From: Physcomitrium patens
Taxonomy: Eukaryota; Streptophyta; Bryopsida; Funariales; Funariaceae
Length of the DNA stretch: 64,000 nucleotides
Reading direction: 5' to 3'
Assembly (NCBI RefSeq): GCF_000002425.4
Contig: NC_037253.1
Location: forward strand, 6,482,178-6,546,177
Shown here: positions 2,440-48,690 of the stretch, one piece after another
Layout of the letters: the number at the start of each line of letters is the position of its first letter
How positions within the stretch are numbered: position 1 is the first letter of the stretch
The notes under the pieces: model-generated
The model's database searches: none
The model's input: the letters and a program-made list of their open reading frames with translations, nothing else
What the model was told of the DNA's origin: nothing
Position numbers and translations under genes: made by a program

Positions 2440-2625
2440 TAGAATTTTTGTACGGATTGATTAAGATTTGATTTAAGATTTAAAATTTGATTAGAATTTG
2501 ATTTAGGATATAGGATTTAATTAGAGTTGATTCAAGATGTAGGCTCTAATTAGGATTTGTTTAGGATTTGGGATTTCTTTAGGATTTGTTTAGGATTTGG
2601 GATTTGTTTAGGATTTCTTTAAGTT
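2440..2625 (+). repeat. degenerate TTTAGGATTTGG tandem repeat inside the LTR
   Basis: This is a run of imperfect 6-18 bp units built from TTTAGGATTTGGGATTTG and TTAAGATTTG. It occupies the same place within the LTR as the clearer array at 40680-40960. The unit resembles the plant telomere repeat TTTAGGG, but it is too degenerate to be called telomeric. Confidence 0.55.
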
Positions 2626-13625: not shown

Positions 13626-14142
13626 TGTCAACAACATGAACTAGAAGAAGATGCATAAATCTGAAAAATCTGTATAAAAAAAAAGTGACAAAATAGCAAT
13701 AAAGTAGTATGTATATTAAAAAGAAACTGGAATGGCTATTGCCAAAAGACAAGTAAACTACAAACTCTTAAATCTAGAATAGAAGTAAGAAAGGAGTTGA
13801 CAAGAGTGAAGAAGACTTCAGTCTTGCCTCTATATATACTATCTAACTAAGAGCTACGTGACAATATTCTAGAGGACCTCTAATATATGTTGACTTAGCT
13901 TATAAGGCAAGTTTTTTATATGTGTGCTACATAGTTAGCTTGTTCTTCAAGCTACCAATACATGTGGCACATGGCCAACTTGTAGACAATGTTTTTAATC
14001 TAAAAAGTGAGTTATAGCACCTATAAAGTCAAAGCAACATTTATGAAGCTTCTATAGAAGATATTATGGAATTAATCTATTTTTATCTACTTTTATTTAA
14101 TCATATAGGTAATTATTGATTTACATGTATTTACTTGTGACA
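13626..14142 (-). repeat. D-1 3' LTR
   Basis: This 517-bp LTR matches those at 31127-31678, 47994-48545 and 48691-49239. On the minus strand it starts TGTCACAAGTAAATAC and ends TTCATGTTGTTGACA. It keeps a TATATATAG box, and the predicted transcript start CACTCTTGTCAA is perfect here (complement of 13797-13808). Confidence 0.85.
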
Positions 14143-14183
14143 TTACTTCTTTTTCTAGGTAGAAGTTTTACAAGGAGTGGTTA

Positions 14184-25161: not shown

Positions 25162-25699
25162 CCGTAATAGGTCTAGTTCAATAAAGAACTGAATAGCTAC
25201 TACTTTCCATTCTATTATTATCATATTTAGAGTAAGTATTTACACATGCCTCTTATACATTTTTCTTTGTTTCTATAAATCTCAAAGATGTGTATTCTAT
25301 TTAATATTCTTTTATAATCCCAACATGTTTAAATAAAGCTTCATTCTTCATATTAGCTTTACTTCTAATTTTTGGTATTATAAATTATACAAATACATGT
25401 CCTATCTCTTCTTCTTCATCCATAGTTATTTATATATTTAATGCCTCTACCATAATAACTTCAGCTGCCACTTGTCTTTTCCTCTTTATCATGTTAATGA
25501 TCGACTCATGAAAATCTTATATGATTATACCAAGAGCCTCTTTTATAGTAAATTTAATTTTTGTATCCAAGAACTTCTCCTCTAAAACACTCTTCATATT
25601 TGTAGATGACTCAATGTTAGATTGAAGCTTGCAAGCAAGATTCTTATCTTTAGATTTTCTTAAGTCAACTTTTTCCTTCTCGTGTTCTTCTTCCACCAC
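25162..25699 (-). pseudogene. F- gag-pol linker fragment
   Basis: The minus strand at 25699-25517 reads 'EKVDLRKSKDKNLACKLQ', 'IESSTNMKSVLEEKFLDTKIKFTIKEALGI'. This is the same block as 6440-6620 in A2 and 57010-57200 in A1, which lies between gag and the protease. It abuts the truncated LTR of D+ at about 25697, so D+ insertion or a deletion removed the sequence between this piece and the gag at 50455. Confidence 0.65.
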
Positions 25700-25926
25700 G
25701 TAGCTCTTAGTTAGATAGTATATATGGAGGCAAGAGTGAAGCCTTCTTCACTCTTATCAATTCTCTTTTAATCCTTAGTCTTATTTCAAGACTTTCTAGT
25801 CTTCTTGTTTTTGGCAATAGCCATTCTAATTAATATTATATCATCTTTTGAGTGACTTTCTACTTCTCTTCAGTGATAGAAGAGTGTATTGAAGATTCTC
25901 TTTCTTCGAGATTCATGTCCTTGAGA
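25697..25926 (+). repeat. D+ 5' LTR, 3' part only
   Basis: It starts at CCACGTAGCTCTTAG and ends GTCCTTGAGA (a decayed GTCCTTGACA). It corresponds to 49010-49239 of the 3' LTR. The TATA box TATATATGG is at 25719-25727. Thirty bases after the first T of that box comes CACTCTTATCAA (25749-25760), the predicted transcript start, with one G-to-A change from the intact copies. Confidence 0.8.
25719..25727 (+). promoter_or_regulatory. TATA box of the D LTR
   Basis: TATATATGG lies 30 bp upstream of CACTCTT. The same pair, with the same 30-bp spacing, is at 49033 and 49063 in the 3' LTR. The box is conserved in every D LTR of the window. Confidence 0.65.
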
Positions 25927-25940
25927 GTTTGACAAGAGTG
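25927..25940 (+). promoter_or_regulatory. putative self-priming primer-binding site of D+
   Basis: GTTTGACAAGAGTG begins at the first base after the LTR. Its reverse complement, CACTCTTGTCAAAC, matches 12 consecutive bases (CACTCTTGTCAA) of the predicted transcript 5' end in the LTR R region. No tRNA-like TGG start is present. This is the arrangement of Tf1-type elements, whose first transcript bases serve as primer. The same 14 bases adjoin the D-2 LTR (47980-47993). Confidence 0.7.
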
Positions 25941-26141
25941 ATAACATATTGTTTCTGTCTTGTTTTAGAAGTGTGTGGATTATCCCACTTCTATTGTTGT
26001 GTTTTGAAGGTTGCAAACTATCCACCTTTAAACAAAAAATCTTATTTTTTAATAGTGATCTTTTTTTTAAAGAGAGTGAATTATCTCTCTTTGTGGGATT
26101 TTTTTTTAGAGGTTGTAGATTATCCTGCTTTAATTTAACTT

Positions 26142-27215
26142 TTGAATTTGTTTGAGTTATCTATAAAAGGAAAGATTATGGATGCTACTCTCAACAAAAG
26201 TGAAAATAGATTTACAACTATGGCAGATCTTCATGAGCTTGTCAACACTCTAAGAGTGGAAATCTTACATATTTCCAATTTGAATCATAGAAGTACTATG
26301 CCTATGCCTATAGAAGAAGTTCAGAGTCTTTGGTAACAAGTTGTGCAATTGAAAGAAGCAAGTAGATCAATGTTACAACCAAATCCAAGGAGTTTTGCTT
26401 CTATAAGTATGACATGGACAAGGATTAGTATGCCCGAGAAGTTTGATGAAATAAGATCAAAATTTTGAGGATTTTTGTGACAAGTCAAGCTTTATCTAAG
26501 GTTACACCTTTTCCAATATTTTGATGGATTTACCCAAGTCGGATTTATAGGTGCACTACTATGAGGAAGTGCTCTCTCTAGGTTTACACCTTTAATGGAA
26601 AAAGATTCACGACTCCTTTACAATTTGAATTCATTCTTAGAAGTGTTTACGGCTACATTTGGAGAAAGTAATCAAGAACGAGTAACAAAGACCAAGCTTT
26701 TATCCTTACAACAAGGATCACAATCAACCCCTACATATGCTACAAAATTCCGAAATCTTGCTTGCGACATGGACTGGAACGACAAAGCACTTATCAATCA
26801 ATTTTGATATGGATTGAAGGATAGCATCAAAGATTTATTATTGATAATGCTGAAAGTAGAATCTTTGAAGTAATTTATTACTCAAGCCATTCCATGCGAC
26901 AATTATTTATTTGAAAGGCGTCAAGAACAAAGATTTGATTGGAGAGGAATAAGTCAAGTAATGACGGCAGCTCTCAAGTATTCTGAAACGTATTTGTCAA
27001 AGCTGGAACCAATGCAAATTGATATGATACGTTTTAAACCTCTCATGAAGCAGGAAAAGACTTGACGTCACCAAAAAGAGTTGTGTTTATATTATAGAGA
27101 AGCTAAGTACATTGCTCAATATTATCCAAAGAAGCAACACAATTACAAAATGAGGAGCACAATTACCGAAGAAGATAATGTGTCAGAAAATGAGTTTCTC
27201 CAGCTACAATAGGGA
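26142..27215 (+). pseudogene. D+ gag
   Basis: The frame starts ATG at 26142 with 'MNLFELSIKGKIMDATL', then 'ENRFTTMADLHELVNTLRVE' and 'ISMPEKFDEIRSKF' up to the stop near 26466. The capsid-like part at 26595-26807 has 'YNLNSFLEVFTATFGESNQE' and 'TPTYATKFRNLACDMDWNDK'. A zinc knuckle follows at 27085-27135 ('LYYREAKYIAQYYPKK'), its Cys and His residues mostly changed to Tyr. The order and start agree with D-2 gag, whose ATG (47779) has the same 'MN.FELS' beginning. Internal stops occur at 26335, 26467 and 26805. Confidence 0.8.
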
Positions 27216-27840
27216 CCGTGCAGTTGGAATCATGTACAACAACTAGTAAAGGTCCTATCCTCCTCTGAGACCCCTCACCTTATTTTATAATAGAAGTGTA
27301 TTTAGGACGTAATAATCACAAAGTCTTTGCCATGTTAGATTCAAGAGCCTCAGCTAATTTTATAGATGAAGATTTTGCCAAAAATCAAAAAATACCTTTA
27401 GTGAAGAAAGTTAAATCTGTACATGTAGAAGTCATAGATGGTCATTCATTGTCTTTTAAAAATGTTACCCATGAAACTATTCTTTTAGATATAGCAATCA
27501 AAGATCATAACAACATAGTACTATTTAATGTAATAAAATCTCTTTCTAATCTGATTATTTTAGGATTATCATGGCTACAAAAATATAACCTTCAAATAGA
27601 TTAGATTTCTCGTAACCTTAACTTTTTTGATAGTATAATTTAAGATTACATTAGCAAAGTAGAATTACGTAAGTCAAGTATGTCCAAACTTTTCCTAATA
27701 GGTGCAAAACCTTTCATGCATGCTCCAAAGGAAGGATCATCTTTTGTTATATATGCTACACCCATTTCTAATGGTGAAACAATATCGAGTGGTATTCCTA
27801 AGTAATATTAAGAATTCTAAGACGTTTTTTAAAAGAAAAA
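27216..27840 (+). pseudogene. D+ aspartic protease
   Basis: The open stretch 27296-27604 has 'HKVFAMLDSRASANFIDEDF', with a retropepsin triplet D-S-R (D-S-G with G to R), then 'NLIILGLSWLQKYN', the C-terminal 'LG..WL' signature. It lies between the zinc knuckle and RT, as in other Ty3/gypsy elements. The stop at 27602 is a TGG-to-TAG change in 'QIDW'. The stretch to 27840 aligns with the D-2 protease-RT linker. Confidence 0.75.
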
Positions 27841-28606
27841 TGTAGATATTCTTCCCGAGCATCGATCTTATGATTGTTCAATTGATCTGCAAGAAAGAGC
27901 TCAACCACCATTCGGACCAATCTATAGCTTATCGTAGAATGAGTTGGCTACATTAAAAGATTACATTGATGAGAATTTTGTAAAGAACTTCATACGCCAT
28001 TCTAAATCTCTTACCGGGGCTCCTATCTTATTTGTGAAGAAGAAAGATAGATCTCTACAAATGTGTGTAGATTATCGAGGACTCAATAAGATCACCATCA
28101 AAAATAGGTATCCTTTGCCTTTGATTTCAAGACTGCTTGACCAACTCAATCAAGCAAAGATCTATATCAAAATAGATCTACGAGGAGCATATAATTTAGT
28201 TCATATCAAAGAAAGAGATAAATAGAAGATTGTTTTTTGAACTAAGTATGGACATTTTGAATATAATGTCATACCTTTTGGACTCATGAATGTATCGATC
28301 ACTTTTCAACATCTTATGAATGATGTTTTTCGTAAGTTTTTAGATGATTTTGTTGTTTGCTATTTAGACGACATTCTAATCTACTCTAAGAACACAGAAA
28401 AACATGAGCTTCATGTTCATCACGTCTTATAGAAACTTAGAGATGCAAGATTATATGCCAAGTTGGAAAAGTATATATTCTATACTACTTAAGTTGACTT
28501 TTTAGGATACATCATTTCTAACGAAGGCCTTATGATGGATCTCAAGAAGGTTCAAACTATCATAGATTAAAAGATTCCAAGAACAGTACAAGATGTGTAA
28601 TGCTTT
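27841..28606 (+). pseudogene. D+ reverse transcriptase
   Basis: 'VDILPEHRSYDCSIDLQE' (27843 on) leads into '[20 protein letters not shown]' and '[20 protein letters not shown]' (28030-28165), '[14 protein letters not shown]', 'TKYGHFEYNVIPFGLMN' and the catalytic Y-L-D-D at 28360-28375. 'VDFLGYIISNEGLMMD' follows. The 'YGHFEY.VMPFGL.NAPATFQ' style is that of the Tf1/sushi and Tcn1-like chromoviruses. Stops (TAG, TGA) sit at Gln, Trp and Arg codons. One main frame can be followed through the stops. Confidence 0.85.
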
Positions 28607-29200
28607 TTGGACTTAGTTAATTACTATGAAATCTTCATTAAGAATTTTTTTCAAGTTATAGCTCCACTTACACGTTTGACTTATAAAGGCAAACTTGAGT
28701 GGAATAAAGAAGCAAAAGAATCATTTGTTGTTTTAAAGAAGGAATTTATTTTTGCACCAATCTTATATTGCATTGACTTTTCCAAGGCATTTTTTATGGA
28801 AACAAACACATCAGATTTTGCTATAGGTGTCGTGTTGTCACAAATGGGAACAAATGACAAATTCCACCCAATAGGTTTCCATTTGAGGAAATTTTCAGTA
28901 ACCAAGATTAATTATAAGATCCATGACAAAGAGCTCCTTGCAATCGTAGATTCATTTCAAAAATAACGTCATTATCTAGAATGTACCTCAAGTCCAATTA
29001 CCATATATACAGATCATAAGAACCTCAAGTACTTCATGTTAGCATGTATCTTGAATCGTCATCAAGCCCGTTAGAGCATGTCTTTATCTAGATTCAATTT
29101 CAAGTTTACTTATCGACTCGAAAAATAACAAGGTCTATAAGATGCTCTTTTTAGATGTTCTTATCTTTTACCAAAAGAATGAGATGCATCTTTTGATCAA
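28607..29200 (+). pseudogene. D+ RNase H
   Basis: 'MDLVNYYEIFIKNFFQVIAP' (connection domain) runs into 'FFMETNTSDFAIGVVLSQMG', with the first Asp (canonical D.S...G) in 'TNTSDFAIG', 'KINYKIHDKELLAIVDSFQK' with the conserved Glu, then 'IYTDHKNLKYFM' and the 'LS' end near 29160. The open stretch 28607-28966 is the longest in the D+ pol. The domain degrades RNA in the RNA-DNA hybrid and, in a self-primed element, would also release the primer. Confidence 0.8.
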
Positions 29201-29215
29201 CAAAGATCAATTCTC

Positions 29216-30277
29216 TTGAAGCCCGAGCATTTTCATCTTCGAGCTATAAAATCAACATTGATTGTTGATTTAACATTTGTGAAGCAAATTCAATCAAGCA
29301 TGTCCTCTGATTCTCTTATTCAGGATAGCAGGAATACTTCTTTTAAGCTTCATGATACTTCTAAGTTTAAATTCAAAAATAATCTATTATATTTTGAAGG
29401 ACACCTATATGTTCCAGAAGGTCAAGCTCGATTACGTGTTCTTCAAGCTCGTCATGACTTTCCAGCAATAAGATATTTTGGATATAAGAAAACTTTGGAA
29501 CTAATATCTAGGAATTTTTGGTGGCCGCAAATGTAGAAGGCAATCAAAGATTTTGTACAATCTTGTGATGTTTGCTCAAGATCAAAAATTCCTCGTCATT
29601 GATCTTATGGACTTCTTCAGCCGTTACCCATTCCAGAACAACCATGGTCTTCTGTTTCTATGGATTTCATCACGGATCTTCTAATCTTAGGTTCTTATGG
29701 CTCTATATTCGTGATAGTAGATCGTTTTATCAAGATGACATATTTTGTACTATGTACAAAATCTATCACAGGTGAAAAAATACCTAAGCTTTTCAATGAC
29801 AATATCTATTGCCATTAAAGATTGCCAAAGGATATTATATTAGATAAAGGGACGTAATTTATATTGAGATTCTAGAGAATCCTATTCAAGATTCTAAAGG
29901 TAGATATAAAGCTTTCTTCAGCTTTTCATCTTCAAATTGATGGACAAATAGAACAAGTAAATGAAGTTTTGGAGTAGTATTTGAGATGTACCATCAACTA
30001 TCATCAAAATGATTGGACAATTCTTTTATGATTGGCAGAGTTTGCATATAATAATTCAATATATTCTTCTACTCAACAAACATCTTTCTATGCCAATTAT
30101 GGTAATCATCTATGACTTGATACTTTTAACTTTTCAAAAGTTGATAATCTTATGGCGAAAGATTTAGCAAATTGCTTGTCATAGCTACATACAATAATGA
30201 AGATAAAATTAAAGGAAGCTCAGGAATGACAAAAGATTAATACAGATGCCTATCACAAGGAACAACCATAATATAAT
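29216..30277 (+). pseudogene. D+ integrase (zinc region and core)
   Basis: 'LRVLQARHDFPAIRYFGYKK' (HHCC region; second His lost), 'FWWPQM' and 'SCDVCSRSK' (C-X2-C intact at about 29565-29580). The core follows: '[10 protein letters not shown]' (29658 on, first Asp) and '[17 protein letters not shown]' with a decayed D-D-E order. 'DGQIEQVNEVLE' (29940-29975) marks the Glu region. The frame runs on to 30277 with stops at Arg, Gln and Trp codons. Confidence 0.8.
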
Positions 30278-30708
30278 ATGGATGATAAGATATTGTTACT
30301 TTGTCGTAATATCAAGACTACTCGTCCTTGTGATAAATTAGATTATCGTAGGCTAGGACCTTTTTTTATTTGTGAAAAAATCAATCCTATTGACTATCGA
30401 ATACATCTACTGGAATCTATGGAGATCCACCTTATATTTCATGTATCTATTCTGGAGCCATATAAGATAGTAAATAACTTGGAAAGAAGACAAATGCCAC
30501 CTCCTTCTATAGAAATGGATCATAACTAAGAGTTTGAAGTGGAAGAAGTCTTAGACTCAAGGTGGTGCCGAAACAAGTTGGAATATCATATTCATTGGCA
30601 CGGATATGATATTAGTGAATGCACATGGGAGCCATCAAAAAATCTTACAAATACAGCAAAGAAAGTTGAAGTCTTTTATCAACGACATCCATCAAAACCA
30701 AGATGAAG
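30278..30708 (+). pseudogene. D+ integrase C-terminus with chromodomain
   Basis: 'MDDKILLLCRNIKTTRPCDK' (the GPY/F-type module 'LDYRRLGPFFI') is followed by 'DYRIHLLESMEIHLIFHVSI' and, after a stop, by a chromodomain at 30530-30690: 'EVEEVLDSRW', 'EYHIHWHGYDISECTWEPS' and 'LTNTAKKVEVFYQRH'. The aromatic cage and 'TWEP' motif are intact here. Chromodomains direct integration to modified chromatin. Pol ends at 'PSKPR' and a stop at about 30705. Confidence 0.85.
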
Positions 30709-31126
30709 AATAGTAAACCTTTGATATAAAAGAAACAAGACCAAAAAAAAATAACATTCTACTTTCTATCTTTGATTATAGCTTCTGTGTATTTGTGATG
30801 AGATGAAGCACCAACAACTAGCAGATTCAATTCAAGAGCTTTCATTTGCAAACTTATCGAACGAGATATTATAATTGTCACAACCTTCAAGATGATGGAA
30901 TTAAGATGAAAATCCTCAAGAACGACATATCCTTCCTCGAATAGATGGCAAGATACAACATGTTTGGTATTTCGACCTTAGAAGATACTCCCAATGTTTA
31001 GTGATTTTATTAGAAGTAGGAACAACTCCTAACAGTGTTTTAAATGTTTTATTTGAAAGAAGTTATGAGGGCCTCAACAATGACCAAATAATAGGGTGGT
31101 CTTTTCGCCCTAATATGACATACTAT

Positions 31127-31678
31127 TATTAAGGACATGAACTCCAAAGAAAAATAATTTCAATACACTCTTGTATCACTCAAAAATACTTAGAAATCAC
31201 TCAAAGGTGATAATATATTGAACTAGAATGGCTATTGCCAAAGACTAGAAAACATGACAACTCTTGAAACTAGACTGGAAATAGGAAAGGAGTTGAGAAG
31301 AGAGAAGAAGGCTTCCTTCTTGTCTTTATATATACTATCTAACTAGGGGCTACGTGGCGATGTTCTATAGGACCTCCAATATGTGTTGACTTTGTAGGAC
31401 ACTTGCCTTGACTTATAAGGCAAATTTTTCTACGTATGGGCCACATAGTTAGCTTGGTCTTCAAGCTAACAACATATGTAGTACATGGCCAACTTGTTGA
31501 TGACGTTTCTAATCCAAAAAGTTAATTAAAGACACCTATGAAGTCAAAGCAGCATCTATGAAGCTTCTAGGAAGCTTTCATATCAAATACTATAGAATTA
31601 ATTTATTTTTATCTATTTTTACTTACTTCTACTTATTTATATATGTAATTATTAGCTTATATGAATATATCCATGACA
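31127..31678 (-). repeat. D-2 3' LTR
   Basis: This is a 552-bp LTR, the same length as its partner at 47994-48545. On the minus strand it starts TGTCATGGATATATTC and ends GTCCTTAATA (decayed GTCCTTGACA). The polypurine tract AGAAAGAGGATAA precedes it (31679-31691). Confidence 0.9.
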
Positions 31679-32239: not shown

Positions 32240-32814
32240 ATCCTCGTTTTGATAGACATCATCGATGAAAAGCCTCTATCGCCTTTGCTGCATTTATAAG
32301 TTTCTTTATTGGCTTCTATGTACGTTCACTAATATCATATCCGTGCCAATGGATAAGATATTCTAATTTATTTCGACGCTGCCTTGAATCTAAGACTTCT
32401 TTTACTTCAAACTCTTTATTATTGTCCACTTCTATAGGAGGAAGTAGAGCTTGTCTTCTTCTTGGTATGTCCACTGTCTTGTATGGTTCAAGAAGAGACA
32501 CATGGAATACTAGATGGATTTTTATTGACTCCGATAGATGTAAACGATATGCAACTGGATTGATTTGTGCAGAAATAGAAAATAGTTCAAGCCTTCATTG
32601 TTGCATGTAACTTTGACAATCAATTTGCCATATCTTCTACTGCAAGATTATCAACTTTTGAGAAATCAAACATGTCAAGTCGTGGATGATAACCATAATT
32701 GGCAAAAAAAGGTGTTTGTTACATAAAAGAATGCACTGTATTATTATAAGTAAATTGTGCCAATGGCAGAAGAGTTATCTAATCATCTTATTAATATTTG
32801 ATGGTACATCTTAA
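32240..32814 (-). pseudogene. D-2 integrase C-terminus and chromodomain
   Basis: Minus strand: 'SLLEPYKTVDIPRRRQALLP' (32501 on), 'EFEVKEVLDSRQRRNKLEYL', 'IHWHGYDISERT' and then a stop at the Trp of 'TWEP', with 'NAAKAIEAFHR' after it. This is the GPY/F-linker and chromodomain as in D+. Upstream it is cut at 32815-32819 by element C, and the rest of the integrase lies at 43959-44780. Confidence 0.8.
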
Positions 32815-32819
32815 ATATT

Positions 32820-34965
32820 TTTTGAATAGATATTAGTTCATTTTTGTAAGATATTGATAAAATAAACTAGTAGTCTATAGAATAGTCAGTTTAGGAGGAC
32901 TGATGATTGATTTAGTTATTAAAAGCGATTATTATAGGATTATGGTGTCATATTGAGAGGTCTTACTGTAGGAAACACTGGATTATTTTTGCAACTAAAT
33001 GACCAAGGAAGAGTCTAACGTCGTTTAACACATCCAAATCCTAAAATCAGACCCTAAAAACCCTAAAAATCCACTATATATTCTTTCCTCCCACTACCTT
33101 CAAAATCCCGAATTTATTATTCCCCTTAACTCCTAAACTAGAGTATATATGAGAGTCAGTTTTGGATATGTTAGAGGCGACAAGATAAGAAATCAAACCC
33201 AAAAAGAAATTTTGAAAAAGGTCAAGTACTCTAAGAGAACCAAGCTTTCAAAGTTACTCCCCCCCCTGCAGCTATAAATTCTGTACCCCTTCTCACTCAT
33301 TTCTTCGTATCTCCTAGCTCACAGGTTGTATGGACTTGAGATTTGGATACAGTATTCTTAACTTTATTAGAAACAAAACCCAACAAATTTCGCCTAAAAA
33401 GTCCAAGTGGTCACTAAGAACCAAGGCCCCGAAATTCACTAATCCTCACTGCCCTAGTCTTAGACACCCGCAACTTTGACGACCCATATCTCCCTTGATA
33501 CTTGATCAAATCACATGAGATTTGTCTCTAATTGTTTCTCACTTTGTCTATTACAAACCCACAAAAAATCGCATTCAAAATCCTCTCCTAACTCATTCTA
33601 CACACAAAAATGTTCTACTGAAATCCTCCTTCTTCCCCCTCTGCTCTTCTTCCTCTTCTTTATATCTTGAGTTTTTTCCACTTTTCGTGATTTCTGCCAA
33701 GTCTTCCTTCCTTTTTGGTCAAAAGGAATCTTATCCCATATCTTTCCACCTCTTCATCCTTATCCCTTTGACTAACTTGGAAAAACTCAACTTTTAAAGT
33801 AGATTTTCATTCTACTTTCTTACTATCTACTTTCTACTATACTTCTCTTCTAATTTCAGCCCACAACCATTAGGTTCAGACCTAATGTAGAAGAAAAATA
33901 TAAGTAAATTAGATCTAAACTTCATAGAAGAAAATCTAATAAGAATAAAACAGTTTAGACTAGATTAAGGATAAAAGATAGGAAACTACAACTTATTCTG
34001 CCAAGTTAGAGAAGCTTATGTGGTATAAGTTGTTGGCTATTTTGAAGTTGATGTGGGTCCAAACCCACTTGACTTCACTGTAGAAAGCCGTGGCTTCATG
34101 ACTTCGTACGGCTAGTGGGAGTTTAAGCAAGAAATTAATAGTTTGACCTACCTATCATCCCTGAGCTTGTAACAAGATGCAGTAAAAATACAAGATATTG
34201 TGATTATAACCACAATCCTTTTCTTTCTTCTTTCTTTCTTCTTCTAATCTTGATTCTTTTATTTCAACACATTATTTTATATTTTTCACACCATATATAT
34301 TTTTACAACACGACAACAATTAGAATCTGGAAATCAGTAGCAATTATGTAGAAATTTTAGAAGTTTGTCAGGGTGCCAGACTGTGATAGTCATGAGCCGG
34401 GGTTAAGCTTGGTGCTTCCTCTTTATTTATTTTTTTTGTTTTCTTTGTTGTTGAAGAGTAATGGATAGTTTCTGAATACTGAGAAGTAAGTCTGCGGAAT
34501 AAATTAGAGATTGATTTATGAGTTATTGATTATGTAATTGGAGTACTAAGTGATTTAATTATATGAGAAGTTATTGGAAGATTGATTATGGATGGAAGAT
34601 TATGATTATTGTTTATTGAGAGTTGTGTGTGTGTTTCGACAAAGGAAGTCTCTGATTACAGGAATTCTATGAATTCAGATTGGTTGGAGTAAAGTCTGTT
34701 ATTCCTGGTGTTGGATGGAATTTATTGAATTTTGAGCGGTCTTTTGAAAGTGCAGGGTTGCACATTATGGTTATCAGTTGATGAAGGAATATTGTTACTG
34801 GGAAGAAGCATTGTAGTGTTTCTTAGTGTTTTAGTGGTTCGGAATATAGTTAATTGTGTGACCTTAACAAGTGAAACTCATGCGCTTAGTCTTTCCATGT
34901 GTTTGAATTCCCCTATATAGGTTTATTCTGGAAGGAATTATAGAATAAGTAAAATGACAATCACA
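32820..34965 (+). repeat. C 5' LTR, split by a solo LTR
   Basis: It aligns with 43183-43953: left part 32820-32945 and right part 34320-34965, with the solo LTR 32946-34315 in between. It ends CAATCACA. Nucleotide identity to the 3' LTR is visibly high, with differences mostly transitions. Confidence 0.9.
32946..34315. mobile_element. solo LTR in the C 5' LTR
   Basis: This 1370-bp LTR starts TGTCATATTGAGAGG and ends TACAACACGACA. The flanks are ATGG (32942-32945) and ACAA (34316-34319). The unoccupied partner LTR has ACGG at 43305-43308, so the 4-bp duplication is proven, with C-to-T on the left and G-to-A twice on the right. It contains CCCATATCTCCCTTG-type phrases, a TATATATTC box and poly-C. 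No coding region. Confidence 0.9.
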
Positions 34966-34968
34966 TTT

Positions 34969-34987
34969 TAGCACCGCTGCCAGGGAA
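34969..34987 (+). promoter_or_regulatory. C primer-binding site, tRNA-Asp type
   Basis: TAGCACCGCTGCCAGGGAA lies 3 bases after the LTR. It differs at a few positions from TGGCGCCGTTGCCGGGGAT, the complement of the 3' end of plant tRNA-Asp(GUC), the well-known primer site of the Athila/Tat-type gypsy elements. Most of the differences are transitions. Confidence 0.8.
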
Positions 34988-35299
34988 TAACAATAGCATT
35001 GAGTGTTAGGAATTAATTGCCAGATGAATAGCTGGGAAATAAGAAGTAAATTCAACAGTATATAATGAAAGATTATGGTTATTAAGAATGAAAATATTAT
35101 AGTAAAAAAAATACGCTAATCGAAAGAAAGACAAGAGAGAACGTAAGCAAGAGAATAGTTACAAAACGAGCAAGAATGCAAGTTAAAAAGGAAGTATCAA
35201 CAAAGTTGGATTAAGCCATGGTTGCATGCCTGTCGGCATATCTGAGCATATCTAGAAGTTGACCTATCTCTAATATTTCAGACATATATACCATTAAAA

Positions 35300-37230
35300 A
35301 AATTACCAAAAGCACATGCAAGAAATTTTGTCAAGAGCCCAGCGTATCTCTTGAGCTCATTAATTGCAAGAGGAGGAAACACAAAAGAATTGGGTACTTC
35401 GTTGGAAACCTTTTCAATAGCGGAAACTACTGATTTTGTAAAAATTGGTTCCGTAGAATGGCATAAATTGCTTGCTAATAAGAGCTAATTTAGTGTATTT
35501 CAAAATCCATTATTTTTACCTCCAATTCAACCAATAAACTTATTTAGGGATAATAATAGTAAATTAAGGAAGTTAGAAAGTCTAGAAAAGATAATTGAAG
35601 AAAGCAATGGTAATTTTAATCAGAGATTAAGTGGCACATTGTCCTCTTCAATGGTGACGGGTAGTCCAGCAGTTCCAATAGCAGTACAAATGGGTGATGT
35701 GAGTGATCGCACAACGAGTGTGGCTTCATTACTTACTTTTAGGGGTTTTCCAAGTATGGACCCCAATCAACATTTGTCTGAGTTTTTGACAGTATGTATA
35801 GCCAATAATGGAAGAATCGAAGATATTTGGTTACGATGGTTGTCAGCAATCTTAAAGGACATGGCGTTTGAATGGTACAACTGTCAACTAGTGGGTCAAT
35901 TTCTGAATTGGAAAGCATTAAAGAATACATTTTTAATCCATTTTTGGCCAATAGGTTTTGAGGATCGTTTTCAAGAGACGTTAATGAACAGCAAAATGAT
36001 TCTAGAGGAGGCGGTGGAATCGTATTATGGCCGGGTGGCTGATATATTCAGTAAGTGGCCGAATCACCATATGCTAGAGGCATTTATCATATCCATATTA
36101 ATTAATGGTTTGCAATTACTAGAGTTAAAAATGTTTGTCAAGGAAACTCAACCCGTTACAGTGTTTGTTTCCCTTAATAGAGCCAAGGTTTGGAAAGAAT
36201 GCTATTATGATCAATTTTTAACTACAGGAGCTACGATGATTCTAGTTCAAGGCAATTATCAAAATCTCACTTGGAACGAATTAGTGGATGCTTATCTATG
36301 GATGTTAGATACAAGGGCCAATTCCAATGCCAATATTAAAGAACCAATTAATGTCATCCCATTGTAAGTTATGCTACCAAACATGACAACAACATATGCT
36401 CTCTATTTTTTATGTCAACAACAAGCATTAACTATGGCAGAGTTATCAATAATATCAACCCCAAAAGATTCCAATGAAGCCTTATTATTGAACTTGACGA
36501 AGAAAATAGAAAAAATGGTCATTAATATGGCCAAGGATAAGGAGAAGAGGCAAAAGCCTACCAATACTAGGACCAATGTTTAGTACAATAATTGTAAGGG
36601 CCACGGTCATTTGATAACAGAATGCCCTTCACCCTCACAAATGATGGGTCAATGTATATTTTATGGAGGAAAGTATTTTACACCTAATTGTTGGAATTTA
36701 CAAAAGCAACAATAATTCAGTAATCAGACCATGATCCCACCAACTCACTAGGACGTCAATCAAGTTCAATCGAAAAATATGTTTGGATGGAATGGAAATC
36801 GATCTAATCGACAAAATTGAGTATTCAATAACTTTCAAAGTTCTAATTTTAATCAAGGGTCTGCATCAAACCCCCAGAACTACAAGAAAGAGTAATAGAG
36901 GTATCAGCAATATGCTCCACCGATGTCATCAAATCAAGTTCTTTCTATTCCAACGTGACAACCAGGATCATTTTCTAACCCTACATAGAACAAGCCTAGT
37001 AAGTATATATCAATGGAGACACCCAATATGCTTGATGGAGGTACAAGAAGACCACTTTGTTGATTTCGTTGCAGATAGATTGGCCATTATGTAAGTGAAT
37101 GTTCCAATCCCAGAGCCAGTGATGATTAAGCACAAGTTTGTGGAAATTACAAGCAGTCGGGGCATACTTATCAACAATGTAATGCTCCATTCAATTTCAA
37201 TAATCGGGATCAGCAGATCTAAAACCAAAG
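35300..37230 (+). pseudogene. C gag with CCHC zinc knuckles
   Basis: A frame running from about 35350 with one stop leads into the open stretch 35639-36367 (242 codons), a retrotransposon gag: 'SVASLLTFRGFPSMDPNQHL', 'WLSAILKDMAFEWYNCQLVG', 'FLNWKALKNTFLIHFWPIGF' and 'AVESYYGRVADIFSKWPNHH'. Then a Gln/Asn-rich part and zinc knuckles: 'NCKGHGHLITECPSPS' (36585-36640), a second at about 37045-37110, and 'CGNYKQSGHTYQQCN' (37135-37180). Frameshifts separate them. The 242-codon block is the best-preserved gag in the window. Confidence 0.85.
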
Positions 37231-37234
37231 AAAA

Positions 37235-38529
37235 ATGGAGGAGATAAATCAAGATCCTCAAGATTCACCGATAAATTGGATGGAATATGTCCAAGCCGTT
37301 CTTATCAGGAGTCAACAAAAAGGGAAAGGACCAATTCAACATTTGGGTGATCCTGAAGCAAAGGGTCAATGTGACCCAATTATGAGGACATCCAATCCAG
37401 ATCCTGTTACGGGCCTCTTATCTGATATGAGACTTGACTCGGTTGGGCAATCCAATGAGGTCTCGATTACGGAGGCTTCAGTTCCGTTTCAAGTTGTTCC
37501 ATTCTCTACACAGTTTCGAGAAACATCCTTTCCTTTGAAAGATCCTTTAGGAGGCGTGAATTCTAAAGAAGCTTCGTCTACTATTCCAATTTCGAGTCCA
37601 AGGCGGAAGAATATCTTACCTCAAGGAGTTAAACTCCAACCAATGAAAAGAAAGAGGACATTTGGCATTACCCTAAATATGGAACCTTATGACATATTAA
37701 AGGATCTGGATGCTATTTGGCCTTCTATTTTTATGAAGCAATTTCTAGCGGTCGCACTAGAGTGCCATTCTACATTGAATTCATTGTTAATATAGCTTAG
37801 GCAACGCAATAAGGAAGTTTGTGAAGTCAGTTTGAACCCTGATCCAGGTGCACCAATCATCAATGTTTCGATTGACGGTGTCATAATCTCTAGTATTCAA
37901 GTGGATGGTGGTTCCAACATCAATTTAATGAACGCTAATATAATGGATGATTTAAATTTGGATTACTTAGTACCGATAATATTGATATTACAGATAGCAG
38001 ATCATAGTCGGATTAAATCAATGGGTATTTTACAGAGTGTTCAAACTATAATTACTGATATTACATATGTAATTGTTTATATTATCTTTCGGCTATAATG
38101 TTTGACTTTATCGTATGTAATTTTATTGGAACGACCCTGGCTTTATCAAGCGAAGGCCAAGAATGATTGGGGTTGAGGTACTTTGATAATTGGCAAGGGC
38201 GACGATAAAATGGTATTACAAATGTACCCAGTAAGCTATCATGGGGAGTCTCAATTGCTAGCATCTGAATTAACGTCGGACGATAAGCTTAGTTCTAATG
38301 ATGATGTAGTCGCACCGATTACGGAGGCGTCCGTAGAGGCACCGCAATACTCTAGAGTGGTGTACCAATGTGGAGGTCCGGGAGAGTACTTGATATACCC
38401 GACGGATTTAGAAAGCTTTGATTATGTTAGTATTGATTAAATGACCAAGTATGATGTACACCATGTGAGTGCTCTAGACACAGGATTTAGCACTTTGTAC
38501 ATGTCGAACGTACCGACTGATTTTCAACC
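37235..38529 (+). pseudogene. C aspartic protease region
   Basis: The frame 37235-37795 is a linker, 'MEEINQDPQDSPINWMEYVQ' onwards. The protease core is at 37832-38098: 'APIINVSIDGVIISSIQVDG', 'GSNINLMNANIMDDL' with D-G-G at the active-site position (again not D-T/S-G), then 'LERPWLYQAKA'. The frame continues toward an assembly gap at 38530. 38183-38440 is a further open stretch ('VVYQCGGPGEYLIYPTDLES'). The annotation as protease rests on position and the 'VDGGS' box. Confidence 0.65.
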
Positions 38530-39346
38530 NNNNNNNNNNNNNNNNNNNNNNNNNNNNNNNNNNNNNNNNNNNNNNNNNNNNNNNNNNNNNNNNNNNNNNN
38601 NNNNNNNNNNNNNNNNNNNNNNNNNNNNNNNNNNNNNNNNNNNNNNNNNNNNNNNNNNNNNNNNNNNNNNNNNNNNNNNNNNNNNNNNNNNNNNNNNNNN
38701 NNNNNNNNNNNNNNNNNNNNNNNNNNNNNNNNNNNNNNNNNNNNNNNNNNNNNNNNNNNNNNNNNNNNNNNNNNNNNNNNNNNNNNNNNNNNNNNNNNNN
38801 NNNNNNNNNNNNNNNNNNNNNNNNNNNNNNNNNNNNNNNNNNNNNNNNNNNNNNNNNNNNNNNNNNNNNNNNNNNNNNNNNNNNNNNNNNNNNNNNNNNN
38901 NNNNNNNNNNNNNNNNNNNNNNNNNNNNNNNNNNNNNNNNNNNNNNNNNNNNNNNNNNNNNNNNNNNNNNNNNNNNNNNNNNNNNNNNNNNNNNNNNNNN
39001 NNNNNNNNNNNNNNNNNNNNNNNNNNNNNNNNNNNNNNNNNNNNNNNNNNNNNNNNNNNNNNNNNNNNNNNNNNNNNNNNNNNNNNNNNNNNNNNNNNNN
39101 NNNNNNNNNNNNNNNNNNNNNNNNNNNNNNNNNNNNNNNNNNNNNNNNNNNNNNNNNNNNNNNNNNNNNNNNNNNNNNNNNNNNNNNNNNNNNNNNNNNN
39201 NNNNNNNNNNNNNNNNNNNNNNNNNNNNNNNNNNNNNNNNNNNNNNNNNNNNNNNNNNNNNNNNNNNNNNNNNNNNNNNNNNNNNNNNNNNNNNNNNNNN
39301 NNNNNNNNNNNNNNNNNNNNNNNNNNNNNNNNNNNNNNNNNNNNNN
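38530..39346. other. assembly gap (817 N)
   Basis: The bases are unknown. It lies between protease and RT of element C and so probably holds the pol linker and start of RT. Confidence 0.99.
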
Positions 39347-39540
39347 TGAGGAGGATTGGACAGCTTCTTGCAGTTGGTTTTATTTACCCAGTACCGAATA
39401 GTAAGTGGGTTTCTCTAATTGTCATGGTGCCAAAAAAAAAATGGAAAAATCCACATTTTTCAAGATTTTTGAAAACTTAATGTGGCTACCAAGAAAGATT
39501 ACTTTCCATTACCTTTCATGGACATAGGATAGACCTAATT
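39347..39540 (+). pseudogene. C reverse transcriptase N-terminal fragment
   Basis: The plus strand reads 'LKRIGQLLAVGFIYPVPNSK', 'WVSLIVMVPKKKWKNPHF' and a frameshifted 'LNAATKKDYFPLPF' block, the fingers region of a gypsy RT. No catalytic Y-L-D-D is reached; the sequence departs from RT near 39530. A deletion must have removed the rest of pol. Confidence 0.7.
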
Positions 39541-39660
39541 ATGATATAAGTGTGTTAGGATGTAGAGGCGGCTGAAAAGATAGTTAGTAGTTATTAATAT
39601 ATCAGATGGGAATGAGGTGAGAAATGGACAATATGTATAACATATTGTCATGATCACCAG

Positions 39661-41254
39661 TGTCATATTGTAACATGACTATATTGAGAAAGCTGATAAT
39701 ATGGATCTTATTATAGAAGAGTCAAGTTAAAAGAAAAGGTAGAAAAATATGGATAAAAGATAGGAAGGTAGTAAAACTTTTAGTAGTAATGGTACCTTTT
39801 TAGAAAAAAATACTTCTACTTACTTTGTAGGGCCAAAAATAAATCAAAATAAGGTAGATTAGAAAAATAAATGATAAAGACATCTTTAGGAGGAAGTTAA
39901 GAGTTAATTCTAGTAAAAATTACTTAAAAAAAACTAGATGTTGATACTTGGAGAGGACCGGTTATAAAGCAAGGTCGAAATCAGACCCTGAGGTACAAAA
40001 CCGAGTCTTGACAACGATTTTGAGATTCTTTGGCACATTGGAGAAAGATATTTGATGGAAGATTAGATAGGATTTCTATGGGCATTAATTTTGGGTGATT
40101 TGGAGTTGATATGACTTTGTAAGAGCTTTGCAAAGTTAAGGTTTGTTTCGGATGACTTAGATTTTATGAAATAAAATAGGGTTTATGTTTTGAGTGATTT
40201 CAAGAATTTTGTAATAGATCTATAGATGAAATTTTGTGGATTTATGGTTATAGTTTTGTTTAATATGTATTGTGAATTTGAACTCGATCTAACGGTTGAA
40301 TTGACGAATATTGAGGTTTTAGTGGGTTAAGGTCTTAGAAAGTAGAATTTTAGGTGCAGTGGAGGTTTTTAAGATTTCTTACAATCTACTAGTTGGATTG
40401 GAGTGAAACTTTCATGAAAGGATATTAGACTTATTTGAGATCAATCAAATGGTACAAAGGAGAGATATTGGCTCTGAAAGATTGGCAACAAGATTGGAGA
40501 AGGAGACCGACCAATACCCGAGCATATTTTTGAAGTTATCATCAACTTGGTAACTCCGATCCTTTTCAATTTTTTTGTACTTGTTTTTAACTTATTTTTT
40601 TAAAAGTGTACAAAATTTGAAATAAGATCAATGGTTTGTACATTAGTTATAGAGGTTTAAATTTGTTGTAGGAATTACTAAGGTTTGGTTTAAGATTTAG
40701 GATTTGGATTAGAGTTTGATTTACGGTTTAAGATTTGTTTAGGGATTGATTTAGGATTTAAGATTTAGTTAGGATTTGATTTAGGATTTAGAATTTAATT
40801 AGGTTTTGGTTTAGGGTTTAGGATTTGGATTAGGGTTTGGTTTAGGGTTTGGTTAGGATTTGGTTTAGGATTTAGTTGGGGTTTAGTTTAAGATTTATTT
40901 AGGGTTTGATTTATGATTTAGGATTTTATTAGGATTTAAGATTTAATTAGTTTTGGCCTATAGTCTGAATGAAGTTCAATAGGATTTTAACTAGAATTAA
41001 ATTAAGATTGAATTGAGATGTATTTGAATGATATTTGTGATCCTTCTAATATTTTTTTAAGAATTCTTATTATTTGTTTGAAATTTCTTTGAGGTTTTTT
41101 TGAATTTGATTAAGCTTGCTTAGCATTATTATGGTCTAATTAGAGCATTGTTAGTATTCTATTAGAATTAGGATTTTTTTATTACAATTTCCATTCTTCC
41201 TTCCACAGCCACGTGCCCGGAGCATTCTCAAGCAAGACTTCATGTATTACGACA
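39661..41254 (+). mobile_element. solo A-type LTR in element C
   Basis: This 1594-bp LTR starts TGTCATATTGTAACATG and ends GTATTACGACA. The flanks are CCAG (39657-39660) and CCGG (41255-41258), a 4-bp duplication with one G-to-A change. It matches the A1 5' LTR (1600-3059) along its length and so gives the intact structure of that LTR. No coding region. Confidence 0.85.
40680..40965 (+). repeat. degenerate TTTAGGATTTGG / TTTAGGGTTTGG tandem repeat
   Basis: About 285 bp of 6-18 bp units alternate TTTAGGATTTGG, TTTAGGGTTTGG and TTTAAGATTTG. Short perfect TTTAGGGTTTAGG stretches occur. It lies in the U3-like half of the solo LTR and corresponds to 2440-2625 in A1. Confidence 0.75.
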
Positions 41255-41459
41255 CCGGTAGTAAGAGAATAGAAATGGGGCACCAGTTAGAGGTTATTCT
41301 GTGTTATCATTCTTGGTTGTTTTTTGAGATTGCTATTTCTTATGTTTTTTATGTTTTTGAGCATAGTAGTTTCAGTTAAGAGTTTGAAAGAGGGAGCATC
41401 ATAGTAATTGAAAGTACAAAGCAAGCTATAGACAAAGAAGACAGTGGCCAAAATATGAA

Positions 41460-42170
41460 AGCTAGACGTGCATCAAAACCACCTTCTGTGATAATCGTTA
41501 CCAATATGGAACCGATGAAGTTGAATACTTGCTGGACACCAAAAAAAATAAAAGACTTTTGGAATGCATAGTTGTTTCAGTTTTTGCACCTGTCATATCA
41601 CTTACCATCAATTAATGTGTCATTAATGGAGAAATATATCACGAACTATGACACGGAAGATCGATCAAGTGTAATACAAGGACAAATTATTGGGATTGAT
41701 GGAACAATCTTGGAAAAGATGTTGTGTCTTTTCATTGGAGAAATTGCAATAGGAGCTGATGACTCAAGCGACTTCACTCCAAGAAGATATTTCAAGGGAG
41801 GTATGTTGATCTTTGACAGGAGTCAAGGTTGGCAGACGGCTAAGGCAATTTCACCAAAACTCGTGGAATGATTTCATTTTGTGGTGAGGCGGTTAGGATT
41901 GTACCGACACCCCGCACATATATCCAAACAGTTATTGTATGCCATGGTGGGGGCACTGGAAGGAATGGTGTTCAATTGGGCAGCGTACGTAGCCACTCAT
42001 ATTCATAAAGAGATAGGAGTCAAGTGGAAATTGAAGAAATTCACTTATTTACTTTGTTCCAATTATGTGTATGCTGTGATTGTGCACACATTGTGTCAAA
42101 CAGCACCAATAGAAGAAAATCATGTACTACTATCAGTGCCTCCGTAGAGAGAATGAAATTCATTAGCATA
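41460..42170 (+). pseudogene. C 3' ORF, N-terminal globular part (unknown)
   Basis: Beginning about 41460, after the solo LTR, a frame with few stops runs through 41572-41871 and, after one stop, 41881-42147. It reads 'FLHLSYHLPSINVSLMEKYI', 'RSSVIQGQIIGIDGTILEKM', 'RYFKGGMLIFDR' and 'LVEWF'-like, then 'HISKQLLYAMVGALEGMVFN', 'VKWKLKKFTYLLCSNYVYAV'. The stop between the halves is TGA for Trp. The make-up resembles the 'putative plant transposon protein' type of domain found in retroelements, but this is an impression rather than a confirmed match. It lies downstream of pol, where Athila/Tat relatives carry an env-like or extra ORF. Confidence 0.55.
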
Positions 42171-42222
42171 AAATATCAATATAGCAGATGAAATATACAA
42201 AATTAGGGAATCAAGTCATATA

Positions 42223-43073
42223 GTGGCACAAGGGATCGTTCCAGTTATTGAATCAGAATGGGTTTCAATTTGTTTAGCGATGGAAGAGGAGAATGAAACC
42301 CCAATTTTGATGGATATTAATCAGTTGGCATTTCCACAAGGTCGATTGTCTAAACAAATACCTCTTAAGAATGCTTTATTAAAGCACATTTTACAAATAT
42401 ATTGTATGGTGCGAGCATTGGATGTAGAGGGCAATAGCAAACGGGATTTAGAGGACAATAAGAAGGTGATATCAGAGCAAAAATGAAGAATTGAAGAGAA
42501 AGAACGAACGATAAACAAAATTGGAGAATCCAAGTTAATATTGGAGTAGAAATGGGTTCACCAATATGAGTCCTGGATGAAAGAAAAAGAACACATCTTA
42601 TGGATTGCGGAAGGACAACGGGACGAATTGATCCAGAATTGCAAGACATGGGATTTGAAATGGAAGAAATTCAAATCCAAGTTGCAGGCAGAAGGAGACA
42701 AGGCAGAGTTATTGATGAAAGAGAAAGAAGCATTGAGTGACCAATCCAGATGCGAAACGGAGAAGTTGAGGTTCGAAATCAAAGTTTTACAAGCTGAGGT
42801 GATAAAATTGACAAAAGAGTTAACAGTGAGAAGTCAGTCACAAGTATCAATTGAAGATGTTCCACAATGGATGAGTCAGCAGCAGCATCAATTGGAACAT
42901 CATGATGCCCGGATCTTAAAATTGGAGGCTCAAGTACGTAAATTAGATGAGTGTAATGAAGATCTATCAAACTAGTTAAGGATGGAATTGATGGACGGAT
43001 TGGAGGAGGAAGAAGTTTTGAATTTAGAACTAGATTTGATGGAACCTACATTAGAAAATGCAGCAAATGATTA
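42223..43073 (+). pseudogene. C 3' ORF, C-terminal coiled-coil part
   Basis: 42223-42486 ('MAQGIVPVIESEWVSICLAM'), then a stop, then 42577-42975, an alpha-helical, Lys/Glu-rich block: 'ELIQNCKTWDLKWKKFKSKL', 'LLMKEKEALSDQSRCETEKL', 'EIKVLQAEVIKLTKELTV', 'RILKLEAQVRKLDECNEDL'. Heptad-like spacing of Leu/Ile suggests a coiled coil of about 130 residues. It continues with acidic residues to about 43073 and ends about 110 bp before the 3' LTR. Function unknown. Together with 41460-42170 it could be one protein of about 530 codons. Confidence 0.55.
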
Positions 43074-43182
43074 ATTGTGTGGGCCAAAGGAATTAGTAAT
43101 TTTATAGAGTTTTCTTAAGTAGTTTTTAGATAAGAATTAATTGTGTATTTTTAAAGATGCTGCACGGATAGGAGTGAGGCTA

Positions 43183-43953
43183 TGTAGAATAGATATTAGT
43201 TCGTTGTTATAAGATATTAGTAAAATAAACTAATAGTCTATAGAATAGTTAGTTTAGGAGGACGGATGATTGATTCAATTATTAAAAGCGGTTATTATAG
43301 GATTACGGTTAGAATCTGGAAATCAATAGCAATTATGTAGGAATTGTAGAAGTTTGTCAAGGTGCCAAACTGTGATAGTCATAAGCCGAGGTTAAGCTTG
43401 GTGCTTCCTCTTTGTTTTTATTTGTTTTCTTTGTTGTTGAAGAGTAATGGATAATTTTTGAATACTGAGAAGTGAGTCTGTGGAATAAATTAGAAATTGA
43501 TTTATGAGTTATTGATTATGTAATTGAAGTACTAAGTGATTTAATTATATGAGAAGTTATTAAAAGATTGATTATGGATAGAAGATTATGATTATTGTTT
43601 ATTGAGAGTTTTGTGTATGTGTTTCGACAAAAGAAGTCTTTGATTACAGGAATTCTATGAATTCAGATTGGTTGGAGTGAAGTCCGTTATTCCTAGTATT
43701 GGATGGAATTTATTGAGTTTTGAACGGTCTTTTGAAAGTGCAGGATTACACATTGTGGTTATCAGTTGATGAAGGAGTATTGTTACTGGGGAGAAGTATT
43801 GTAGTATTTCTTAGTGTTTTAGTGGTTTGGAATACAGTTAATTGTGTGATCCTAACAAGTGAAACTCATGCGCTTAGTCTTTTCCTGTGTTTGAATTCCT
43901 CTATATAGGTTTATTTTGGAAGAAATTATAGAATAAGTAAAATGACAATCATA
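43183..43953 (+). repeat. C 3' LTR
   Basis: This 771-bp LTR starts TGTAGAATAGATATT and ends ACAATCATA. It is the uninterrupted partner of 32820-34965 and holds the empty target site ACGG at 43305-43308. Confidence 0.9.
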
Positions 43954-45344: not shown

Positions 45345-46120
45345 TACTGTTCTTGGAATCTTCCAATCTATGATAGTCTAGATCTTCTTGGGATCTATCA
45401 TCAGGCCTTCGTTGGAAATGATATATCCTAAAAAGTCAACTTGAGTAGTGTGGAATATACACTTTTTCAACTTGGCATATAATCCTGCATCTCTTAATTT
45501 TTGTAACACATGACGAACATGGAGTTCATGTTCTTCTGTGTTATTAGAGTAGATTAGAATATCGTCTAAATAACAAATGATAAAATTATCTAAAAATTCA
45601 CAAAAAACATCATTCATAAGGTGTTGAAAAGCAGCTCGTGCGTTTGTGAGTCCAAAAGGCATGATATTATATTCAAAATGTCCATACCTACTTCAAAAAG
45701 TAGTCTTTCATTCATCTCTTTATTTGATGCAGACCAAGTTGTATGCTCCTTGTAGATCTATTTTTGTGTAGATCTTTGCTTGATTGAGTTGATCAAGAAG
45801 TCCTGAAATCAAAGATAAAGGCTACCTATTTTTTATGGTGATCTTGTTAAGGCCTCGATAGTCTACGCACATCTGTAAAGACCCATCTTTTTTCTTCACA
45901 AATAAGCTCGGTGCTCTTGTTGGAGATTTTGAATAGCATATGAAGTTTTTAGCCATATTCTTGTGAATATACTCCTTTAGTGCAGCCAACTCGTTTTGTG
46001 ATAAGTTATAGATTGGTCCAAATGGCAGTTGAGCTCCTTCTTCAAGATCAATTGAACAATCATAAGGTCGATGTTCTGGAAGAATATCTGCATTCTTCTT
46101 CTAAAAAACATCTTGGAATT
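45345..46120 (-). pseudogene. D-2 reverse transcriptase
   Basis: Minus strand from 46120: '[16 protein letters not shown]' and '[20 protein letters not shown]', '[20 protein letters not shown]', then 45662 down: 'MPFGLTNARAAFQHLMNDVF', 'NFIICYLDDILIYSNNTEEH' with catalytic Y-L-D-D, 'GLYAKLKKCIFHTTQVDFLG'. It is in frame with RNase H and protease apart from stops. It has the highest similarity to D+ of all segments. Confidence 0.88.
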
Positions 46121-47979: not shown

Positions 47980-47993
47980 CACTCTTGTCAAAC
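47980..47993 (-). promoter_or_regulatory. putative self-priming primer-binding site of D-2
   Basis: The minus strand reads GTTTGACAAGAGTG directly after the 5' LTR end (47994). It is identical to the D+ site (25927-25940). Its complement is the predicted transcript start of the LTR, CACTCTTGTCAA, which in this copy is decayed (TACTCTTATCAA at 48160-48171) but intact in D-1 and in the D+ 3' LTR. Confidence 0.7.
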
Positions 47994-48545
47994 TATCAAG
48001 GATATGAACTCCAAAGAAAGATAATCTCAATACACTCTTATGTCACTCAAAAATACTTAGAAACCACTCAAAGATGATAATATATTGAATTAGAATGGCT
48101 ATTGCCAAAGACTAGAAAATATGACGACTCTTAAAACTAAATTGGAAATAAGAAAGGAGTTGATAAGAGTAAAGAAGGCTTCACTCTTGTCTCTATATAT
48201 ATTATCTAACTAGGGACTACATGGCGATGTTCTATAGGACCTCCAATATGTGTTGACTTTGTAGGAGACTTGCCTTGACTTACAAGGCAAGTTTTTCTAT
48301 GTATGGGCCACATAATTAGCTTGGTCTTCAAGCTAACAACATATGTGGCACATGGCCAACTTATTGACCACATTTCTAATCCAAAAAGTCAATTAAAGAC
48401 ACCTATGAAGTCAAAGCAACGTCTATGAAGCTTCTAGGAAGCTTTCATATCAAATACTATAGAATTAACTTACTTTTATCTACTTTTACTTACTTCTACT
48501 TATTTATATATGTAATTACTAGTTTATATGAGTATGTCCATAACA
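47994..48545 (-). repeat. D-2 5' LTR
   Basis: 552 bp. Minus strand: start TGTTATGGACATACTC (decayed TGTCATGG), TATATATAG box, end GTTCATATCCTTGATA (decayed CTTGACA). The mirror partner is 31127-31678. Confidence 0.9.
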
Positions 48546-48690
48546 ACTATAGATGGTTGAGAGGACATATCAATCATCTTCATAGAGAGTAAAGATCAGA
48601 GTATGTATCAAATATAATTTGCTGCATCTTGGACTTCCTCAACATATGAAGACTACTCTTCATGGAACTCGTCTCTAGAAGGGAGGACAA

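Follow-up and report, generated by a model that had tools for sequence, protein, structure and literature searches.

A Decayed Chromodomain Retrotransposon of the Moss Physcomitrium patens Very Probably Primed Its Own Reverse Transcription

The stretch of Physcomitrium patens DNA analysed here (64 kb, hereafter the window) carries copies of an LTR retrotransposon, D, that very probably primed its own reverse transcription in the manner of Tf1; this is the best explanation of the data, the identity of D as a moss chromovirus included. The self-priming reading put forward in the initial annotation was upheld, as the pairing between the start of R and the primer binding site (PBS) is kept by position and covaries across families, and no TGG lies near the LTR end.

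The window contains two D copies, with copy 2 inserted inside copy 1; beyond copy 2 follow the remaining internal region of copy 1 and its 3' LTR. The features are as follows.

13797–13808, minus strand: R start in a further D LTR (~13725–14150), exact
25696–25926, plus strand: copy 1 5' LTR, U3 truncated; 84.5% to the 3' LTR over 239 columns (BLAST, alignment)
25719–25725, plus strand: copy 1 TATA box, from the sequence; predicted +1 is the A at 25750, 31 nt later
25729–25741, plus strand: U3 arm GGCAAGAGTGAAG of the copy 1 5' LTR, complementary to the R start region (hairpin)
25749–25760, plus strand: R start and putative self-primer CACTCTTATCAA of the copy 1 5' LTR, one change
25927–31126, plus strand: copy 1 internal region, as far as the nested insertion
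25929–25940, plus strand: copy 1 putative self-PBS TTGACAAGAGTG, 2 nt past the LTR
31127–31678, minus strand: copy 2 3' LTR, 91.7% to the copy 2 5' LTR; target site duplication (TSD) ATAGT adjoining
31293–31304, minus strand: R start CTCTCTTCTCAA of the copy 2 3' LTR, two changes; placed by its offset from the 5' LTR
32316–32594, minus strand: copy 2 integrase SH3_Tf2-1 and chromodomain piece, profile match
34320–43951, plus strand: E, a different LTR element lying inside copy 2; LTRs 92.6% alike; gag
45378–45692, minus strand: copy 2 reverse transcriptase piece (RVT_1), profile match
47980–47991, minus strand: copy 2 putative self-PBS, from the sequence
47994–48545, minus strand: copy 2 5' LTR (TG...TA), TSD ATAGT at 48546–48550
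48160–48171, minus strand: R start TACTCTTATCAA of the copy 2 5' LTR, two changes
48691–49239, plus strand: copy 1 3' LTR
49043–49055, plus strand: U3 arm of the hairpin in the copy 1 3' LTR
49063–49074, plus strand: R start CACTCTTGTCAA of the copy 1 3' LTR, exact
60995–61006, plus strand: R start in a further D LTR (~60643–61173), one change

D bears the hallmarks of an LTR retrotransposon: copy 2 is flanked on both sides by the 5-bp TSD ATAGT, its CA end being mutated, and a purine-rich tract (PPT) precedes the D 3' LTRs. The nested element E carries the site TTAGCACCGCTGCCAGGGA after its 5' LTR, which by its likeness we take to be tRNA-type. Degenerate TTTAGGATTTRG-like repeats with a spacing of ~30 bp occur at window positions 2457–2554 and 40675–40950. 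Rfam and ARAGORN scans of the whole window returned no match.

The initial annotation had placed the pairing site in a 14-mer directly after the LTR. This 14-mer, GTTTGACAAGAGTG, is indeed present at 25927–25940 (plus strand) and 47980–47993 (minus strand), and with up to 2 mismatches it has four matches in the window against 0.40 expected; the start of the pairing was in turn revised. Because the D LTRs end at 25926 (copy 1) and 47994 (copy 2) and are followed by a 2-nt spacer, GT, the paired stretch is TTGACAAGAGTG (25929–25940 and 47980–47991), 2 nt later. The LTR end reads CCTTGACA, exactly or with one change, in most copies inspected, the two copies of the window having GA and TA instead. 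In D LTRs, the complement of the paired stretch, CACTCTTGTCAA, starts ~30 nt past the TATA box. The 12-base complement reported earlier was recovered exactly at 49063 and 13797 and with one change at 25749, and the LTR at 60995 adds a fourth, near-exact site with one change. The other two of the six window D LTRs (48160 and 31293), both belonging to copy 2, have two changes. With R starts exact in just two of six LTRs, the window D copies are therefore decayed. Neither has a perfect R:PBS pair within its own 5' LTR, and the anchored shuffle test on both window 5' LTRs gave no complementary run of at least 6. The copy 1 PBS and the 3' LTR of the same copy share a 13-nt complementary run that was reached by 0/2000 shuffles, and a chance origin of the D pairing was ruled out on this basis. 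In the accessible part of its text, PMC6317226 defines a self-priming PBS as complementary to the element's own LTR over at least 10 nt and 0–5 nt from the LTR end; the corresponding values for D are 12 nt, perfect with the copy 1 3' LTR, and a 2-nt spacer. In both window copies, TGG is absent up to 40 nt from the LTR end, so that by this criterion the 14-mer is not a tRNA-type site, in agreement with the earlier claim that it is not a tRNA complement.

Profile searches, run on each piece separately, placed D pieces above the Pfam cut-offs for gag, RVT_1, RNase H, H2C2, SH3_Tf2-1, and Chromo, with one further piece matching a protease model above its cut-off. The piece at 32316–32594 matched SH3_Tf2-1 at 1.2e-10 and Chromo (PF00385) at 6.9e-06 (26.3 bits, cut-off 25.1). 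The view that the reverse transcriptase and integrase of D are Tf1/sushi-like, with a chromodomain, is supported by RVT_1, SH3_Tf2-1, and Chromo, the rve match remaining below its cut-off. A protein search with the reverse transcriptase piece gave 1025 matches, the names of the best 120 of 1025 being uninformative, and comparison with the PDB returned Ty3 and more distant reverse transcriptases. Among viral contigs, 132 stretches fit a pattern and 0/132 encoded a relative. Judged from its sequence, D is a decayed chromovirus of the moss and probably a member of the Tcn1 clade, akin to Tf1/sushi.

Searching the genome (470.4 Mb, 101 contigs) for the 14-mer yielded 228 + 244 = 472 occurrences, compared with 0 + 1 for the reversed control. 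We sampled 68 of the 472 copies anchored on the 14-mer, taking those listed first on contigs C1 (28), C2 (20), and C3 (20); L013 and L014 are the window's own copies. The co-conservation of R start and PBS across genomic D copies that the initial annotation had made decisive was found: a partner with up to 3 mismatches lay 169–186 bp upstream in 57/68 copies (exact in 26), whereas control windows of equal width reached this level in 17/476 cases. The partner, at this threshold, was missing in 11/68 anchored copies. Mean column identity among the 57 copies was 0.927 in the 12-mer versus 0.861 in the U5 background, with 5/125 U5 windows conserved as well as the R start. In the 26 perfect copies, the primer:PBS helix had a mean predicted pairing of 0.92 when 60 nt after the PBS were included and of 0.66 with 250 nt, where 8/26 fell below 0.1; one copy, L021, showed 0.06 already at 60 nt.

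A scan of a genome collection disclosed ten retrotransposon loci (L001–L010), all in records of bacterial metagenome-assembled genomes (MAGs) and therefore taken as eukaryotic contamination. L001 comes from a cyanobacterial MAG and seven further loci from a MAG named Trichormus; since Trichormus includes the cyanobiont T. azollae, these seven are probably DNA of the fern Azolla. Six of the ten loci reach the LTR. The R:PBS count omitted L002 and L007, which begin downstream of the expected LTR, L009, which is almost without an upstream part, and L008, whose matches fall within a masked run alone. Five of the six loci reaching the LTR possess an exact R:PBS pair of 11–12 nt, in letters other than those of D, with the R starts CAGTCTCGACAA (L001), AAGGCGAACAA (L003 and L010), AAGGTGAACAA (L004), and ACTCTTGATCAA (L005). 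In these five, the R start lies ~32–34 nt after the TATA box and 119–164 nt before the PBS, which itself begins two bases past GACA (AACA in L010), the inferred LTR end. The sixth locus, L006, pairs over 7 nt only. Shuffles did as well in 0–1 of 2000 cases for L001, L003, L004, and L005. Over D, the RLG1-like family described below, L003, L004, and L005, canonical PBS:primer pairs numbered 55/55, while the cross-family control averaged 6.9/11 (largest 11). L003, L004, and L010 are close, and the families are therefore not all independent. The Trichormus contigs with L003, L004, L005, and L010 (and the decayed L006) are probably self-primed D-like elements of Azolla; the accessible text of Neumann 2019 (PMC6317226) reports Tcn1 solely from moss and club-moss.

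The P. patens family closest to L001, at 88–89% protein identity, is represented by 57 copies (L079–L135); scoring covered 57 of the 58,386 first-look candidates. This RLG1-like sister family, dominant in the genome, is probably RLG1 of Physcomitrium patens, which the available text of PMC7466625 describes as a chromodomain gypsy element and the commonest family of this moss. Its R:PBS pair is CAGTCTCGACAA/TTGTCGAGACT, with the R start exact in 53/57 copies, changed at one base in 2, and not read in 2. Beside the self-PBS, 23 nt after the 5' LTR end, 49/57 copies carry the exact site TGGTATCAGAGC, which we take to be a tRNA-iMet-type site. The same site was found in 0/68 D copies (up to 2 mismatches, within 120 nt) and not in L001 or L003–L006. 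A 12-bp tRNA screen could label the RLG1-like family as tRNA-primed.

The RLG1-like copies also bear on the length of the primer. PBS bases 1–11 show 4 variant bases out of 627 across the 57 copies, and base 12 reads A in 27, G in 28, C in 2, and T in none. The base preceding the R start is C in 55/55 copies read. Across 30 RLG1-like loci, no other of the 4730 columns varies as much as base 12, whose neighbours on both sides are almost uniform. Among 100 listed of 628 D sites, base 12 is G68 A23 C8 T1 and base 13 is C87 T11 A1 G1; transversions number 9 versus 2 of 100 (p = 0.058), a weak excess. In L003, L004, and L010, complementarity stops at 11 because base 12, a C, faces the C before the R start. 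This variation fits what would be expected of the footprint of an 11-nt primer that starts with the A. An ancient A/G polymorphism between subfamilies, unrelated to the primer end, would account for it differently, a possibility to which we give appreciable but less than even credence and which competes with the footprint, not with self-priming. On the RLG1-like tree the base-12 states require 6 changes, compared with 11.4 on average after shuffling (20/27 inner branches open), so that the state is clustered and therefore partly inherited, and four other columns come near it in variability (two with 14 and two with 12 non-major of 30 loci). A subfamily polymorphism is harder to reconcile with three states at a single site, with sister copies L093 and L095 (support 99*) that differ there, and with the variation of D at the same site, while an 11-nt primer is the simplest reason for base 12 to be exempt between near-uniform neighbours.

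A second element of secondary structure adjoins the primer. An arm between the TATA box and +1 is complementary to bases +1 to +9 of the primer and to the 3–4 bases ahead of them, closing a 4-nt loop; of the six families whose R:PBS pair is intact, five have this U3/R hairpin, namely D, RLG1-like/L001, L003, L010, and L004. Hairpin cells within the primer are canonical in 35/36 cases over D, RLG1-like, L003, and L004 (cross-family control: mean 4.9/9, largest 9), and beyond the primer one pair has changed in a compensatory manner between L003 and L010 (GGT/ACC vs GAT/ATC). No U3 arm was seen in L005, and the pairing of L006 is broken. In D, the hairpin is predicted at −18.2 kcal/mol versus −14.4 kcal/mol for primer:PBS; in L004 it is the weaker of the two, at −12.1 versus −14.1 kcal/mol. 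As the arm is located in U3, the hairpin would be missing at the mRNA 5' end and present only towards the other end, with the potential to mask the second primer copy there. Another duplex, between the U5 end and R and resembling that of Tf1, was seen in L003, L004, and L005 (5, 0, and 22 of 500 shuffles as good); the corresponding values, 81 for D, from one decayed copy, 411 for L001, and 196 for L010, were not significant.

Transcription of D would start at the A ~31 nt past the TATA box, and the 11 nt at the 5' end of the mRNA (ACUCUUGUCAA) would fold onto the PBS, 2 nt beyond U5, a pairing supported by sequence and covariation. RNase H would presumably cut after nucleotide 11, as in Tf1, freeing an 11-mer that primes minus-strand DNA. 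When plus-strand synthesis copies this primer, PBS bases 1–11 would be rewritten in every daughter copy, with base 12 left unconstrained, as the pattern of variation suggests, and base 12 itself may arise by non-templated or cap-copied addition. The U3/R hairpin, confined to the 3' LTR part of the mRNA, may hide the second primer copy. We tentatively propose, with confidence well short of even, that self-primed plant chromoviruses combine two features not described before: a U3/R hairpin with a 4-nt loop, present at the mRNA 3' end only, that masks the second primer copy so that the capped 5' copy alone primes, and a one-base scar at base 12, formed as reverse transcriptase leaves the capped end of the primer, from which genome sequence by itself would reveal both transcription start and primer length. 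We found no account of either in the openly accessible main-text literature, and both may be in print.

It is very improbable that the D PBS binds a tRNA, whole or half, and that its match to the LTR is incidental. Such a primer would be in keeping with the presumed tRNA-iMet-type site of the RLG1-like sister family and with the usual tRNA priming of other plant chromoviruses as given in the accessible text of PMC6317226. Each family is nevertheless complementary to its own LTR and not to one tRNA, and a tRNA primer at +23 would be expected to leave 23 extra bases past the LTR. A tRNA primer for D was rejected, there being neither a TGG by the PBS nor an iMet-type site. Equally improbable is the notion that the R start is conserved solely because it forms a promoter or initiator dyad together with the U3 arm, the PBS being a non-priming duplicate. 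Arm and R start do form a dyad in five families, and in D the arm columns and the R start show about equal conservation; yet L005 has the R:PBS pair without a visible U3 arm, in every family two bases separate the PBS from an LTR end that is partly inferred, and a promoter role leaves the 11-nt limit unexplained.

The probable self-priming of D by the 5' end of its mRNA resembles what the accessible portions of PMC10085805 and PMC4600332 describe for Tf1/Tf2, Tj1, Tosmo, and sushi-type elements of fission yeasts and vertebrates, whose mRNA 5' end is complementary to an LTR-adjacent PBS; in D, the predicted mRNA 5' end is likewise complementary to the PBS by the LTR. The additional "pretzel" duplex of Tf1 (PMC10085805, in the part available) has a counterpart in L003, L004, and L005, with the D value given above coming from a single decayed copy. 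According to the accessible text of Neumann 2019 (PMC6317226), the Tcn1 elements of moss and club-moss adjoin Tf1/sushi and most are predicted to be self-primed; self-priming having thus been predicted already for most plant Tcn1 chromoviruses, D is not a first. D shares with them the chromodomain, predicted self-priming, a non-seed plant host, and Tf1/sushi kinship, whereas the 12-mer, the base-12 footprint, and the U3/R hairpin appear on the D side only in a comparison with that part of the description. For SM-Tcn1 of Selaginella, likewise of the Tcn1 clade (for which D is a candidate) and from a non-seed plant, the available text of Novikova 2010 (PMC2864245) reports that neither a tRNA nor a self-priming PBS was found; D differs in having a putative one of the latter kind. 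D is also like RLG1, as far as PMC7466625 is accessible, in being a chromodomain element of Physcomitrium patens. It differs from the RLG1-like family in its primer sequence, its seemingly greater age (LTR pairs at 84.5% and 91.7%), and the lack of a tRNA-iMet-type site.

Earlier plant evidence for self-priming, in the accessible text of PMC6317226, was a complementarity screen; the covariation described here provides independent support for self-priming in chromoviruses of moss and probably of fern. The base-12 approach offers a means of reading primer length and +1 off genomic copies. Should the 3' primer copy be masked by the hairpin, this would explain how a self-primer present in two R regions avoids the wrong PBS partner. 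With a self-PBS and a presumed tRNA-iMet-type site side by side, the RLG1-like family makes primer choice directly testable in a model moss.
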